IMG/VR virus record: IMGVR_UViG_3300009136_000036 | Coordinates: 1-23,690 of that record | Strand: one strand, 5' to 3' | Origin: a virus | Length of the DNA: 23,690 nucleotides | Shown here: positions 1-6,299 of the stretch, piece after piece | Position numbering within the stretch: the first letter of the stretch is position 1 | Layout of the letters: the number at the start of each line of letters is the position of its first letter | Translations under genes and position numbers: made by a program | The notes under the pieces: generated by a model | Databases searched by the model: none | The model's input: only the letters and a program-made list of their open reading frames with translations | Told to the model about the DNA's origin: nothing

Positions 1-59
1 CGCACAGGACTGGAAATTATTATTCATCATGCTGTGATGCCGGAATGATTCAGCTTTAA
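1..59 (+). CDS. 3' end of an unidentified small phage gene (5' end outside the window)
   Basis: An open frame enters from the left edge (first complete codon at 3-5) and ends at TAA 57-59. The visible residues are HRTGNYYSSCCDAGMIQL. Its stop codon is the first TAA of the repeat element at 57-75, so the repeat supplies both the end of this gene and the ribosome-binding site of the next. Too little is visible to assign a family. The frame is open to the window edge, whereas the other two forward frames hit stops at 35-37 and 46-48, which supports this as the coding one. Confidence 0.5.
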   Translation, partial: HRTGNYYSSCCDAGMIQL

Positions 60-75
60 CCAACCATAAGGAATA
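57..75 (+). repeat. 19-bp three-frame stop + Shine-Dalgarno element, copy 1
   Basis: Exact copy of TAACCAACCATAAGGAATA. It contains TAA at 57, 67 and (with the next base) 74, one in each forward frame, and the Shine-Dalgarno core TAAGGA at 67-72, about 9 nt before the ATG at 82. It therefore ends any upstream reading frame and starts the next gene. Identical copies lie at 254-272 and 484-502. Confidence 0.85.
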
Positions 76-81
76 AGGGAA

Positions 82-273
82 ATGCGAATTACCCACGAAA
101 TGATAGATAAAGCATCTGCCGCCTATGCTGAAAAGAGGCATCCTCAAAGGTGGGATGGTGAGCCATGGGGTCAGGCTGGGCGGGCGAATCATAACGCCGC
201 CATTAAAAATGCATTAACGGTTATTTTTAAAGAGTATAGATTAGTAAAAAAAATAACCAACCATAAGGAATAG
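82..273 (+). CDS. small phage protein of unknown function, 63 aa
   Basis: Sixty-three residues, soluble, basic and rich in Ala, Lys and His, with no membrane segment. The first part (HEMIDKASAAYAEKR) looks helical and resembles the openings of many small phage accessory proteins, but I do not recognise a family. The ATG is placed by the TAAGGA of repeat copy 1, 9 nt upstream. The last residues, TNHKE plus stop, are translated from repeat copy 2, so they are a by-product of the repeat rather than part of a fold. The next gene starts 5 nt after the stop codon, indicating co-translation. Confidence 0.7.
   Translation: MRITHEMIDKASAAYAEKRHPQRWDGEPWGQAGRANHNAAIKNALTVIFKEYRLVKKITNHKE
254..272 (+). 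repeat. 19-bp three-frame stop + Shine-Dalgarno element, copy 2
   Basis: Exact copy of TAACCAACCATAAGGAATA. TAA at 254 and 264 and TAG at 271-273 give stops in three frames. TAAGGA at 264-269 is the ribosome-binding site for the ATG at 279. The element is read through as ...TNHKE by the 63-aa gene before its stop. Confidence 0.85.
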
Positions 274-278
274 AGATA

Positions 279-503
279 ATGATTAACAGAGAGGAATACC
301 TAGACGATCACGGCTTGCAAGTCGATCCTTTGTTTGACATGGTTGATGAGTATCAATCTAAAATCGAGCAACTAAAGAAAGAAAACGAAGATATGTTAAC
401 AATGCTGACCGTGGTGTCAAAAGCAGATTGGCAAGCTTCAAACTTATGCTTAAGAGTTGAGCTAGAAGATTTAGTTATGTGTTTAACCAACCATAAGGAA
501 TAA
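279..503 (+). CDS. small coiled-coil phage protein of unknown function, 74 aa
   Basis: Seventy-four residues. An acidic N-terminus (MINREEYLDDHGLQVD) is followed by a heptad-like stretch at about residues 23-40 (DEYQSKIEQLKKENEDML) that should form a short coiled coil, so dimerisation is likely. There is no membrane segment or known motif. The ATG lies 9 nt after the TAAGGA of repeat copy 2. As in the preceding gene, the C-terminus is LTNHKE because repeat copy 3 is translated in the same frame. The two proteins share nothing else, which argues that the repeat moves or is conserved independently of the genes it flanks. Confidence 0.7.
   Translation: MINREEYLDDHGLQVDPLFDMVDEYQSKIEQLKKENEDMLTMLTVVSKADWQASNLCLRVELEDLVMCLTNHKE
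484..502 (+). repeat. 19-bp three-frame stop + Shine-Dalgarno element, copy 3
   Basis: Exact copy of TAACCAACCATAAGGAATA with TAA at 484, 494 and 501, one per forward frame. TAAGGA at 494-499 sits 8 nt before the ATG at 508. It ends the 74-aa gene and starts the 48-aa gene. Confidence 0.85.
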
Positions 504-507
504 GAGA

Positions 508-654
508 ATGACATTACTACTAGTAGTTTTACTAAACATAACACCGCCAACGGCATCGACTGAAGGGTTAAATGTTGGACAATTAGAGAGGTGGTGCAAG
601 GCGCGCCCTCAAAATATGGCCCATCCTCGGTGTAAGCCGTGGCAACAAAAATAG
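508..654 (+). CDS. small protein with signal-like N-terminus, 48 aa
   Basis: Forty-eight residues. The first 10-12 (MTLLLVVLLNIT) are strongly hydrophobic and followed by a PPTAST segment that could be a signal-peptidase region or the end of a short anchor. The rest is basic and contains two cysteines (C30 and C42) and three tryptophan/proline-rich patches, so a small exported or envelope-associated peptide is possible. Start choice is supported by the TAAGGA of repeat copy 3. The N-terminus lacks the basic n-region of a classical signal peptide, so export is only a guess. No family recognised. Confidence 0.5.
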   Translation: MTLLLVVLLNITPPTASTEGLNVGQLERWCKARPQNMAHPRCKPWQQK

Positions 655-660
655 CTAAAA

Positions 661-689
661 TTGTGATTAAAGGCTTAATAGCTTATAAT
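661..689 (+). promoter_or_regulatory. candidate sigma70-type promoter
   Basis: A -35-like TTGTGA at 661-666 and a perfect TATAAT at 684-689 are separated by exactly 17 bp. They lie in the only non-coding gap of this region, between the 48-aa gene and the genes from 719/730 onward. Transcription would start near 696 and could drive the downstream membrane/lysis genes. No operator-like dyad is obvious around it. Confidence 0.55.
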
Positions 690-1480: not shown

Positions 1481-1830
1481 GCGACGAAAGCAGAAACAAT
1501 CCGAATATAGAGCGAATATTAGACAGCTTCGCAGGCACGTTGGAGAAACATGCAGAGAAAACAGATACAGCGCTGGAGAAATTGACCGAGACAGTACAAA
1601 AGCTGGCAGATAATCAAATTGAGACTAAAAAGGATCGAGAATACGACTCAGCAAGAGCGGAACGCATAGAAGAGAATCAAAAAGAACAAGGGAAAAAGAT
1701 TGAAACCTTATCAAATACCGTCCTACTATTAGACGAAAGAGTCGGTAACCAAAAGAATAAATGGGCCGAAGTTGGCAAGATAGGCGGCGCAATAATCACA
1801 GCGGTTCTAATCGCTAAGTTGGCTATATGA
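1477..1830 (+). CDS. XhlA-like coiled-coil protein with C-terminal membrane anchor
   Basis: One hundred and seventeen residues. The first ~95 are hydrophilic with heptad-like spacing (for example LEKLTETVQKLADNQ and IETLSNTVLLLDERV), followed by a C-terminal membrane helix (about residues 100-117, GKIGGAIITAVLIAKLAI). This architecture matches the haemolysin XhlA/phage coiled-coil-plus-anchor proteins often found beside holins. It starts with GTG at 1477, preceded by AGGGG at about 8 nt and overlapping the upstream stop as GTGA; its own stop overlaps the next start as ATGA. A role in lysis or as a membrane tether is inferred from architecture and location only. Confidence 0.6.
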   Translation: MSDESRNNPNIERILDSFAGTLEKHAEKTDTALEKLTETVQKLADNQIETKKDREYDSARAERIEENQKEQGKKIETLSNTVLLLDERVGNQKNKWAEVGKIGGAIITAVLIAKLAI

Positions 1831-2234
1831 GCGTACCATTCACAGAAAATCCAGATATAGACGTTAGGCGCTGGTATCACGAAGATTGCACGATAGGCCG
1901 GTTGTTTACTGGTGATATGCAATGCTTTACGTTAGAGCTACCATTCCTAGATAATCAAAAAAACGTATCATGCATCCATGAAGGCTGTTATGAGTATTTT
2001 ATTAGGCCGAAGCCAAGTGGCAAAGTAATCGAATTAAAAGGCGTAGAAAACAGAACTCACATTCAATTACACTCAGGAAATTACACTAGCCAAATTTTAG
2101 GTTGTTGTCTCCCAGGTGATTCGATAAAGTGGTTGAACCGAGATAAGGTGCCAGATGTATCAAATTCAAGAAATACACTAATCAAGATTTTAAACAGAAT
2201 CCCAGAAACCGGAATAATTAGATTTTGGAGTTAA
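1827..2234 (+). CDS. DUF5675-type phage protein
   Basis: One hundred and thirty-five residues. The centre shows the pattern I associate with DUF5675: a thioether-free beta-rich domain with FTLELP near residue 34, a glycine/tyrosine turn near 53-57 (GCYEYFIRP), and the conserved block IQLHSGNYTSQILGC at about 79-93 (H82, G84-N85, G92-C93). The family is common in phages but has no established activity to my knowledge. The H...GC arrangement recalls YkuD-type L,D-transpeptidases, which is only a resemblance. It lies inside the lysis cluster where an endolysin would be expected. Start ATG overlaps the upstream TGA (ATGA). Confidence 0.6.
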   Translation: MSVPFTENPDIDVRRWYHEDCTIGRLFTGDMQCFTLELPFLDNQKNVSCIHEGCYEYFIRPKPSGKVIELKGVENRTHIQLHSGNYTSQILGCCLPGDSIKWLNRDKVPDVSNSRNTLIKILNRIPETGIIRFWS

Positions 2235-3163: not shown

Positions 3164-3870
3164 TGGCTTTTGTATCAGGCGCACAGACAAATCCTGGCAA
3201 TGCTTACGCCCCAGCCAGTGATACAGACACAGCCTTGTGTTGGATAGCTGGCGCGTATGGAGTTGGAACGGCAAGCGGCAGCGCTCAAGACTTTGGCGGG
3301 TCTGGGATGACAGAGCCAGCAGCGCAAGATCAAACTTTAGATCTAGCAGGAAATGGCGACCCATCAGCTAACGCAAGTTATCTTGTAAATCCAGGAACTT
3401 CATCAAGTACACTTTCGCTCACGTGGTCTAGCGGCAGGGCTGGCGATGTTGGTTATGCTTTTACTGTGGCAGATATAGATCAAAGCACGCCTATTTCGGG
3501 GACTCCGACGGGTGGCACGTATACCAACTCCGGATCCGGAGAGCCTTCACTAACATACAGCGCAGAAAATGGCGACGTTGTGGTATACTGGCGCTACCAC
3601 GCAAGAGGAGGGGGAGCCATATCATGGACAGACCCGACCGATTTTACGCAACGCTCCGACATTGCTATAATTACGTCACCAGCCAGACGCTCAATAGCGG
3701 TATGGACAAGGGATGTCACAAGCTCGCTTGTAGGGGCAACAGTTCAAGCAAGCGAGAGCGCTGATGGCGATGGTTTGCAGGGTTGTTTTGTGCTGCTAGC
3801 CGCTGGTGGAGGCGGTGGAGTTTCAATACCTGTTATAATGAATCACTTAAGAAATCAAGGAATAAGTTAA
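3163..3870 (+). CDS. predicted virion/appendage beta-protein, 235 aa
   Basis: Two hundred and thirty-five residues, Gly/Ser/Thr/Ala-rich, without signal or membrane segment, with alternating beta-strand patterns (for example LSLTWSSGRAGDVGYAFTVA near 84-103 and GDVVVYWRYHARGGG near 136-150). The motif VADIDQSTPI near 101-110 resembles the f.nVdqttP segment found in a family of phage and bacterial jelly-roll proteins. A glycine-rich linker (AAGGGGG) near residue 213 precedes a short conserved-looking tail, VSIPVIMNHLRNQGIS. I infer a decoration or fibre-type virion protein. It heads the block of six virion-type genes before the terminase, each starting at or near the previous stop. Confidence 0.5.
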   Translation: MAFVSGAQTNPGNAYAPASDTDTALCWIAGAYGVGTASGSAQDFGGSGMTEPAAQDQTLDLAGNGDPSANASYLVNPGTSSSTLSLTWSSGRAGDVGYAFTVADIDQSTPISGTPTGGTYTNSGSGEPSLTYSAENGDVVVYWRYHARGGGAISWTDPTDFTQRSDIAIITSPARRSIAVWTRDVTSSLVGATVQASESADGDGLQGCFVLLAAGGGGGVSIPVIMNHLRNQGIS

Positions 3871-4421: not shown

Positions 4422-6299
4422 ATGTTTTTGAGACAATCGACAGCATCGCAAGAGATAAGCTTAGGTCAGTTTCTAGACTCTACTGATGGAGACACTGAGG
4501 AGGGTGGGTTAACAATAGCCAATACCGACATTAAACTCAGAAAGCATGGGACAACCACTTTAGCAAATAAAAATTCTGGCGGTGCAACCGTTATATCCAA
4601 TGGCGTCTATCAGTGTACTCTTGATGCAACCGACACAAATACAGCAGGCCAATTAGAGATATATGTTCATGTATCTGGAGCCTTAGCTGTAAAGAATACT
4701 TACGTAGTTTTAACTGCAACAGCTTTTGACGCTTTATTGACAGGAACTTATAATAATATTTCACCGGCTGAAGTAAATGCTGAGGCTGACACCGCCCTAA
4801 CTGATTATGACGGGCCGACGAACGCAGAAATGGAAGCGAGAACTTTAGTCGCGGCAAATTACTTTGATCCGACATCAGACCCAGTGGCGACAGTGACAAC
4901 CCTTACCAACCTGCCCGCAATCACTAGTAACTGGCTAACGGCAGCAGGTATAGCAGCAAGCGCACTAGATGGTAAAGGTGATTGGAATATTGGGAAAACA
5001 GGATACACAGTTTCAACCGTTTCAGATAAAACCGGCTACTCTATTAGCGGCGCAATAACCACATTAGACGGGTTGAATAACTTTGATCCTACCAGCGATG
5101 CGGTTGCTAATGTTACGTTAACCGCGTCATGTACAACAAACACCGACATGGTAACCGAGCCGCCAACAGTTGCGGCAATAGCTGATGGTGTTTGGGATGA
5201 GGTTCAGGCTGGACACACTACAGCGGGTACTTTCGGACTGTATTTAGATTCTGAAGTATCTGGAGCGGGTGGAGGTTCAGCGCCTACCGTATCAGAAATA
5301 GCCGACGGTGTATGGGATGAATTATTGTCAGCTCACACAGTTTCTGGATCATCTGGCGAAGCACTGGCGGCAGCTGGAACGGCTGGAGACCCTTGGACAA
5401 CCGCATTACCTGGGGCTTATGGAGCGGGAACGGCGGGTAAAATTATTGGCGATAACATCAACGCGCCACTAGACACTATTGACGCGAACATTGACTCAAT
5501 ATTGGTGGATACAGGGGAGATTGGAACGGCTGGAGCCGGTTTGACTAATATTAATCTTCCTAATCAAACAATGGATATTACTGGTAACATTACAGGCAAT
5601 CTATCTGGAAGCGTCGGAAGCGTGACAGGTGGCGCAACTTCAGCGGCACAAACAACAGCTCAAAATGATTTAGATATAATTACCGGTGCTGATGGTGTTA
5701 ATTTACTATCAGGCACGCAAGCAAGTATTGACGCTATCGAAGCAGATACTAATGAATTGCAAGGCGATTGGGTTGACGGCGGTCGATTGGATTTAATTCT
5801 CGACGCTAGATCGTCACAGGCAAGCGTAGATACGGTTGATGGAAATGTGGATAGTATTTTACTTGATACTGCTGAGATTGGCACAGCCGGAGCCGGTTTG
5901 ACTGACTTGGGTGGAATGTCTACAGGAATGAAAGCAGAAGTTAATACAGAAGCGGACACAGCGTTAACGGACTATGACGGGCCTACAAACGCCGAAATGG
6001 AGGCAAGAACACCAACGGCAGCACAATTAGCTTATATCACCGCTAACGCCGAAACTGGCCTCCCTGTGACATTTACTACTTCAGGCGGCTCAACTACGGC
6101 GGCGGTGCTTAATCTCGTAGATGGCGGCGCGGGGAGTGCGACAGACGACCAATATAACGGACGACTACTAGTATTTACAGATGGAACCTTGAAAGGCGTA
6201 GTGACAGATATCACTGATTACACCGGAAGCACAACGACGGCGACAATTACAGCGATACCATTTGCACCAACATCTAGCCATAATGCCAGGTTAATTTAA
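4422..6299 (+). CDS. modular tail-fibre-like protein with internal repeats, 625 aa
   Basis: Six hundred and twenty-five residues, low in Cys and Trp, rich in Thr, Ala, Gly and Asp. Residues 1-105 form a beta module (SLGQFLDSTDGDTEEG ... LDATDTNTAGQLEIYVHVSG) that I recognise as recurrent in phage tail proteins. The middle holds repeats: EADTALTDYDGPTNAEMEAR near residues 121 and 512; IADGVWDE near 253 and 293; DSILVDTGEIGTAGAGLT near 356 with its variant DSILLDTAEIGTAGAGLT near 476. Residues ~545-625 form a second recurrent module (TDDQYNGRLLVFTDG ... VTDITDYTGSTTTATI). A fibre or appendage is likely, possibly host-contacting. Its ATG is 9 nt after the upstream stop. Confidence 0.6.
   Translation: MFLRQSTASQEISLGQFLDSTDGDTEEGGLTIANTDIKLRKHGTTTLANKNSGGATVISNGVYQCTLDATDTNTAGQLEIYVHVSGALAVKNTYVVLTATAFDALLTGTYNNISPAEVNAEADTALTDYDGPTNAEMEARTLVAANYFDPTSDPVATVTTLTNLPAITSNWLTAAGIAASALDGKGDWNIGKTGYTVSTVSDKTGYSISGAITTLDGLNNFDPTSDAVANVTLTASCTTNTDMVTEPPTVAAIADGVWDEVQAGHTTAGTFGLYLDSEVSGAGGGSAPTVSEIADGVWDELLSAHTVSGSSGEALAAAGTAGDPWTTALPGAYGAGTAGKIIGDNINAPLDTIDANIDSILVDTGEIGTAGAGLTNINLPNQTMDITGNITGNLSGSVGSVTGGATSAAQTTAQNDLDIITGADGVNLLSGTQASIDAIEADTNELQGDWVDGGRLDLILDARSSQASVDTVDGNVDSILLDTAEIGTAGAGLTDLGGMSTGMKAEVNTEADTALTDYDGPTNAEMEARTPTAAQLAYITANAETGLPVTFTTSGGSTTAAVLNLVDGGAGSATDDQYNGRLLVFTDGTLKGVVTDITDYTGSTTTATITAIPFAPTSSHNARLI

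Follow-up and report, generated by a model that had tools for sequence, protein, structure and literature searches.

We describe a short repeat, shared by a group of virus contigs, that is quite likely a joint of stop codons, ribosome site and start codon doubling as a homology patch for the exchange of small gene cassettes. Alignments of its carriers show small genes to be gained, lost and swapped between phages, singly or in short runs, and they locate the switch within the element, around the invariant core ATAAGGAA. The initial annotation of the DNA discussed here had proposed the same interpretation from three copies of the repeat. It is supported: the element recurs, the cassettes beside it differ, and homology between contigs switches at the repeat.

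The window (the whole analysed stretch of 23,690 nt, IMG/VR record IMGVR_UViG_3300009136_000036) carries three exact copies of the 19-mer TAACCAACCATAAGGAATA on the plus strand, at 57-75, 254-272 and 484-502, where 0.01 copies would be expected by chance according to shuffles. No further copies were found in the window with up to three mismatches allowed. These positions, as well as the spacings of 197 and 230 bp, are those given in the initial annotation. The window starts inside its own array, and the module upstream of the array therefore lies outside it. The features of the array are as follows:

3..59, plus strand: C-terminal part of an upstream gene, truncated at the contig end so that 18 codons are visible
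57..84, plus strand: element copy 1, TAAC plus CAACCATAAGGAATA, core at 61-75, extending up to the ATG at 82
TAA at 57-59, plus strand: stop within element copy 1 that closes the partial upstream gene
82..273, plus strand: cassette gene 1, a 63 aa ORFan ending in ITNHKE, the tail encoded by element copy 2
254..281, plus strand: element copy 2, core at 258-272; TAG at 271-273 stops the ORF 82-273; ATG at 279
279..503, plus strand: cassette gene 2, a 74 aa ORFan ending in LTNHKE, the tail encoded by element copy 3
484..510, plus strand: element copy 3, core at 488-502; TAA at 501-503 stops the ORF 279-503; ATG at 508
508..654, plus strand: cassette gene 3, a 48 aa ORFan, last in the array
661..689, plus strand: promoter-like TTGTGA-17-TATAAT, sigma70-like, closing the window array

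Most of what had been read from these first lines agrees with our scan. TAAGGA sits 8-9 nt ahead of the ATGs at 82, 279 and 508, the partial upstream frame closes at its TAA, and the next two genes end in ...TNHKE at the last stop of the repeat. Stops are present in all three forward frames, the third of them (TAA or TAG at 74, 271 and 501) needing the base that follows the 19-mer. The coding sequences between the copies, described as unrelated, are indeed ORFans without family matches, and no relatives of the three cassette proteins were found in the collections searched. As the window cassettes lack known relatives, exchange in the window itself would follow from the behavior of the element family. 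At the three window elements, we found neither promoter-like nor terminator-like matches, and the window repeats gave no match to known RNA families. Further downstream, window positions 1827-2234 encode a DUF5675 protein (PF18925, phrog_1501), of which carrier G002 has a relative.

Scanning IMG/VR for an exact 16-mer yielded 118 matches, mostly attributable to chance, with some contigs containing several spaced copies. Among 2.9 million viral contigs, the more specific form AACCATAAGGAATAGATNATG matched only 10 stretches, almost every one in a multi-copy carrier. The element set, built from full contigs and admitting two right-hand variants, amounts to 62 copies in 12 virus contigs (G000, which is the window, G001-G009, G018 and G019). 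The initial annotation had asked for the 19-mer to be sought in related phages, and the element recurs in 11 other virus contigs and is not a local feature. It had also predicted that the repeat would be conserved while cassettes differ, as is the case, and none of the outcomes named as refuting it (a repeat found only here, the same cassettes fixed in all relatives, a part of an ordinary protein domain) holds. The consensus of the 62 copies, CAACCATAAGGAATAGATGATG, is longer than 19 bp and usually includes one or more start codons. Its most constant part is the core given above, each base of which is present in at least 57 of 62 copies, and an alternative right end, ...AAGGAAGGTAACGAGAAATG, occurs mostly in the last copies of arrays. 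All elements of an array share a single orientation. The arrays are compact accessory regions of small ORFs spanning 0.4-3.4 kb, with wider spacing for the two copies of G018 and for groups of copies in G001 and G007. Copies are confined to these accessory arrays, none preceding structural genes, and the ORFs downstream of elements are small ORFans with a median length of 75 aa.

Outside the carriers, the element was absent from eight terminase relatives searched whole and from 41 terminase loci beyond that of carrier G001. It was not found in cultured phages, where the best match was a single copy with 22 of 24 bases. An origin in host genomes was considered and rejected: the 20-base form gave 7 single matches in 84,980 species genomes, and near-matches in three host genomes checked were at about the control level. 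Where IMG/VR contigs otherwise match part of the motif, the match is mostly a single, unrelated one. A screen for 13-bp start-linked repeats with at least three copies found none in 46 related loci (0.54 Mb) and 7 in 222 other phage loci. At least one of the seven is an artefact, L228, where the flagged sequence is a collagen-like repeat. Different repeats or junctions were observed elsewhere. Many phage contigs among L004-L083 contain a single copy of TAACCAACCATAAGGAGAA or GGAGAT, a different, possibly homologous gene junction that is unrelated to the arrays. In L168 (685-4887) and on the minus strands of L206 and L260, another start-linked repeat, GGAGACCTCGCAT(A)ATG, precedes several genes of an unrelated phage group with apparently conserved gene order, and on the minus strand of L266 (1443-4541) the repeat AACTTAACCAATAAATAAATA occupies the ribosome-site position ahead of several small genes.

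Within the element, stop codons in three frames are combined with a Shine-Dalgarno sequence and one or more start codons. Closure in any frame, as first suggested from the window, is borne out across the family, where upstream genes stop in all three frames (26, 14 and 10 by frame), with stops at core offsets -4 (8 genes), 0 (4), +6 (10), +13 (14) and +25 (7), among others. When scored from 20 bases before the ATG, three-frame closure occurs at 35 of 58 element starts compared with 19 of 146 other Shine-Dalgarno starts, and in 1.2% of random 24-mers. Proteins reading into the element gain the tails NHKE, NQP or NHKEGNEK, and many downstream proteins begin with MM because start codons lie within the element. 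Conservation of the element beyond its Shine-Dalgarno could reflect an unrelated function in regulation.

By protein comparison, the carriers fall into groups with few or no virion genes in common. The window and G001 share one P22-like set (portal phrog_156, head phrog_283). By terminase, both are closest among cultured phages to Pseudoalteromonas phage vB_PspP-H6/1 and Vibrio phage 1.182.O, at 63-64%. Other carriers encode a portal of phrog_145 (G007), a head-tail adaptor of phrog_332 (G018), an internal virion protein of the T7 type (G004), a terminase of phrog_979 (G008) or a tail sheath (G006), the last of which implies a contractile tail. G003 has a terminase of phrog_38 and no protein in common with the other carriers.

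Homology between carriers tends to end at the element. In a first set of element pairs from different contigs, with 80 bp compared on each side, 10 pairs share the upstream side only, 7 the downstream side only and none both (17 versus 0). In an extended set with 60-bp flanks, 28 pairs are one-sided (17 upstream only, 11 downstream only) and 4 two-sided. At other gene junctions of the same contigs, 86 pairs are two-sided, 38 of these coming from the near-identical pair G008/G019, and 112 are one-sided. The many one-sided homologies at such junctions mean that these phages are mosaic by other routes too. Among nucleotide blocks of at least 80 bp whose ends fall within arrays, 27 of 41 ends lie on an element in both contigs, with 5.0 expected under uniform placement, and nearly all remaining ends are in the long element-free stretches of G001, G007 and G018. 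Scored inside the element only, the copies are chimeric, the left part going with the upstream gene and the right part with the downstream gene. Elements behind the same upstream gene are 0.84 identical in their left part against a background of 0.63 (P 0.0055), while their right part stays near background (0.62 versus 0.55). For elements ahead of the same downstream gene, the right part is 0.94 identical against 0.55 (P 5e-5) and the left part is near background (0.65 versus 0.63); as phages share ancestry, junction pairs are not independent and these P values serve as guides. This chimerism locates the exchange inside the core, and speaks against the element being no more than a leader for the next gene.

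Individual cassettes illustrate these exchanges. The cassette beginning MMIELSNNQISILGKPNF follows three different genes in G004, G005 and G019, and in G004 and G019 it forms the sole shared nucleotide block over 100 bp, a stretch of 268 bp at 98.5% identity that runs from core +0 to position +12 of the next core. The swapping of small accessory genes, another suggestion of the initial annotation, is visible at one site that is found empty and filled with two different genes. After ...GGCGCTTTTTTATTAA|, G007 has one element and no gene, G001 has the gene MIIELELK... and G018 the gene MGTLSEYEK..., in both cases with an element or element-like copy on either side of the inserted gene. The array of G008 contains relatives of both genes. 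A strong terminator-like hairpin with six T (G001 3235-3303, G007 5557-5625; -25 kcal/mol) directly precedes this three-state site and a promoter follows it, so that the inserted genes lie between both. Over 38 kb, identity between G008 and G019 is mostly 95-98%, yet their arrays are entirely different, G008 having no cassette in common with G019 from 12462 to about 14950. Separately, several genes just downstream of arrays have near-identical first 24-33 coding bases, ATGAATAACCTAACACAAGAGCAAGTGAG (MNNLTQEQVS), and then diverge. They are located in G001 (L322) at 999 and 1219, in G018 (L340, reverse strand) at oriented position 30802, in G007 at oriented 3697 and in G019 at oriented 14106. 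This sequence is perhaps a second, coding, exchange patch.

The promoter-like sequence that closes the window array is followed by a leader. The degenerate relative of the repeat suspected at 699-720 is not a copy; it is this leader. The same promoter and leader come after the element site in the related phage G001, and a similar promoter after an element site in G007 and G018. Downstream of the conserved leader, the window has two ATGs in different frames, 11 bases apart (719 and 730). The same arrangement is seen in G001, and relatives favor the start at 730.

Genes for Erf, RecT or exonuclease, and for SSB or SSB-like proteins, are located just upstream of six arrays. Directly upstream are Erf in G001 (across the contig end), G005 and G018, RecT in G007, a RecE-like exonuclease in G004, and an exonuclease with a DUF1351 protein in G009. 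Between the recombination gene and the array, G005 encodes an SSB, and G009 and G018 a short protein whose tail, DDDIPF or DDLPPF, is SSB-like. With the models used, no recombinase genes were found beside the arrays of G002, G003, G006, G008 and G019. Erf and RecT proteins recombine diverged sequences (PMC3945230), and such annealing recombinases probably use this 22-bp element. Mixed infection or replication would then offer the setting for exchange, in which Erf or RecT, the single-strand-annealing proteins of the phages themselves, anneal homologous copies of the short repeat. The element would close any upstream gene in any frame and give the next gene a strong ribosome site and start codon(s); since the joint keeps both neighbors translatable, almost any exchange at it would be tolerated. 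Its translational role and its role as homology patch may together keep the element uniform.

Several known sequences resemble the element, and it is none of them. The start-associated repeats called SAS, described in mycobacteriophages of cluster K and Microbacterium phages of cluster EF (PMC3203893, PMC7302621), are 13 bp long and proposed to act in translation initiation. They are often paired with an extended form, ESAS, which consists of 17-bp imperfect inverted repeats and lies ahead of roughly half of the sites. SAS are likewise short asymmetric repeats over the ribosome site that precede many unrelated non-structural genes in a single orientation; their conservation reaches past the Shine-Dalgarno, and some contain the upstream stop codon. 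The element, too, lies over the Shine-Dalgarno a few nt before the starts of many unrelated genes, in one orientation, and all its copies are in compact accessory arrays of non-structural genes. It differs in sequence (CAACCATAAGGAATAGATGATG, versus GGGATAGGAGCCC or GGGAAAGGACCCC for SAS), in having starts inside the element, in closing three frames and in the gene exchange seen here; the passages covered in the two papers describe no gene exchange at SAS. The flanks of the element change with the gene upstream. Lambdoid boundary sequences (Clark 2001; Susskind and Botstein 1978; cited in PMC3029335) have been proposed as homology for module exchange. They share with the element a short conserved sequence at gene boundaries where homology between phages switches, whereas the element serves dozens of junctions as one universal joint, and does so in phages whose virion genes are unrelated. 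Of the window's own phage, P22-like head genes are seen, the early region being missing from the sequence. Single genes are gained and lost between 17-bp direct repeats in cluster O mycobacteriophages (PMC4351075); that repeat is palindromic and not tied to starts, unlike the element. Gene 68 of Island3 is another case of gain or loss between direct repeats, and its repeat encodes a shared C-terminal tail (PMC3029335), which resembles the NHKE tail but represents a single event.

The element also shares with the PeSLs of T4-like phages the presence of multiple copies marking a region of gene shuffling. PeSLs (Arbiol 2010; Comeau 2014) reportedly consist of an early promoter and a stem-loop at the boundary of a transcription unit. 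They are presented, in PMC4503421, which cites them, as short mobile multi-copy intergenic sequences proposed to mediate the shuffling of small genes through recombination. A PeSL is thus a joint for transcription, whereas the element, with stop, ribosome site and start, marks the boundary of a translation unit, and the three window elements gave no promoter-like or terminator-like match. For a three-frame translation joint common to phages with unrelated virion genes, with exchange inside it, we found no published precedent, which is weak evidence given the limited literature covered.

We consider it unlikely that the element is mainly an SAS-like translation-control site co-regulating early genes, with exchange a by-product of illegitimate recombination and selection for intact genes. 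As in SAS, the copies sit at the ribosome site, keep one orientation and are conserved past the Shine-Dalgarno, and roles in translation control and exchange are mutually compatible. An element belonging to the downstream gene would travel whole with that gene; instead, its left part tracks the upstream gene, the switches fall within the core of about 10 bp, and translation control has no need of three-frame closure. There is only a minimal chance that the repeat is simply the strongest ribosome site of these phages, reached by ordinary convergence on a consensus. It does contain TAAGGA, a good Shine-Dalgarno, but near-identity over 22 bp goes far beyond such a sequence, the copies keep to their arrays and do not precede structural genes, and start-linked repeats are rare in the screen above (0 of 46 and 7 of 222 loci).

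Site-specific recombination by a dedicated integrase, resolvase or homing endonuclease acting on the element would account for the precise junctions and the three-state site. A cassette of G002 is itself an HNH gene, and in G005 and G007 the recombinase gene is preceded by HNH genes. We nevertheless regard this mechanism as very improbable: tyrosine or serine recombinase domains were found in none of the 12 records, several being fragments (the same holds for PF00589, the tyrosine recombinase expected of integron-type cassettes), visual inspection of the element showed no evident dyad, and no endonuclease is common to all carriers. Misjoining of mixed-population contigs at a short repeat during assembly seems scarcely credible, even though assemblers can be misled by exact repeats and several carriers were obtained from the same or neighboring metagenomes. 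The common repeat is only about 22-30 bp, shorter than usual assembly k-mers. Moreover, misjoining fits poorly with chimeric left and right parts, intact reading frames, filled and empty sites with two copies versus one, and carriers from separate datasets. Exchange at a joint that doubles as homology patch remains our preferred reading.

Whether phage mosaicism arises via short conserved boundary sequences or via illegitimate recombination is a long-standing question, and most junctions show no recognizable boundary sequence (PMC3029335). In these arrays the joint can be seen, recurs often and is chimeric, and both empty and filled sites exist, which makes the homology-patch model directly testable. 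We tentatively suggest that one standardized connector, common to podovirus-like and contractile-tailed phages whose virion genes are unrelated, turns small early genes into exchangeable parts of a shared pool by closing any frame and bringing its own ribosome site and start, and that it may be maintained partly because annealing recombinases can trade genes at it without damage. The array is also a place to seek the short early genes that phages trade, possibly against host defenses.
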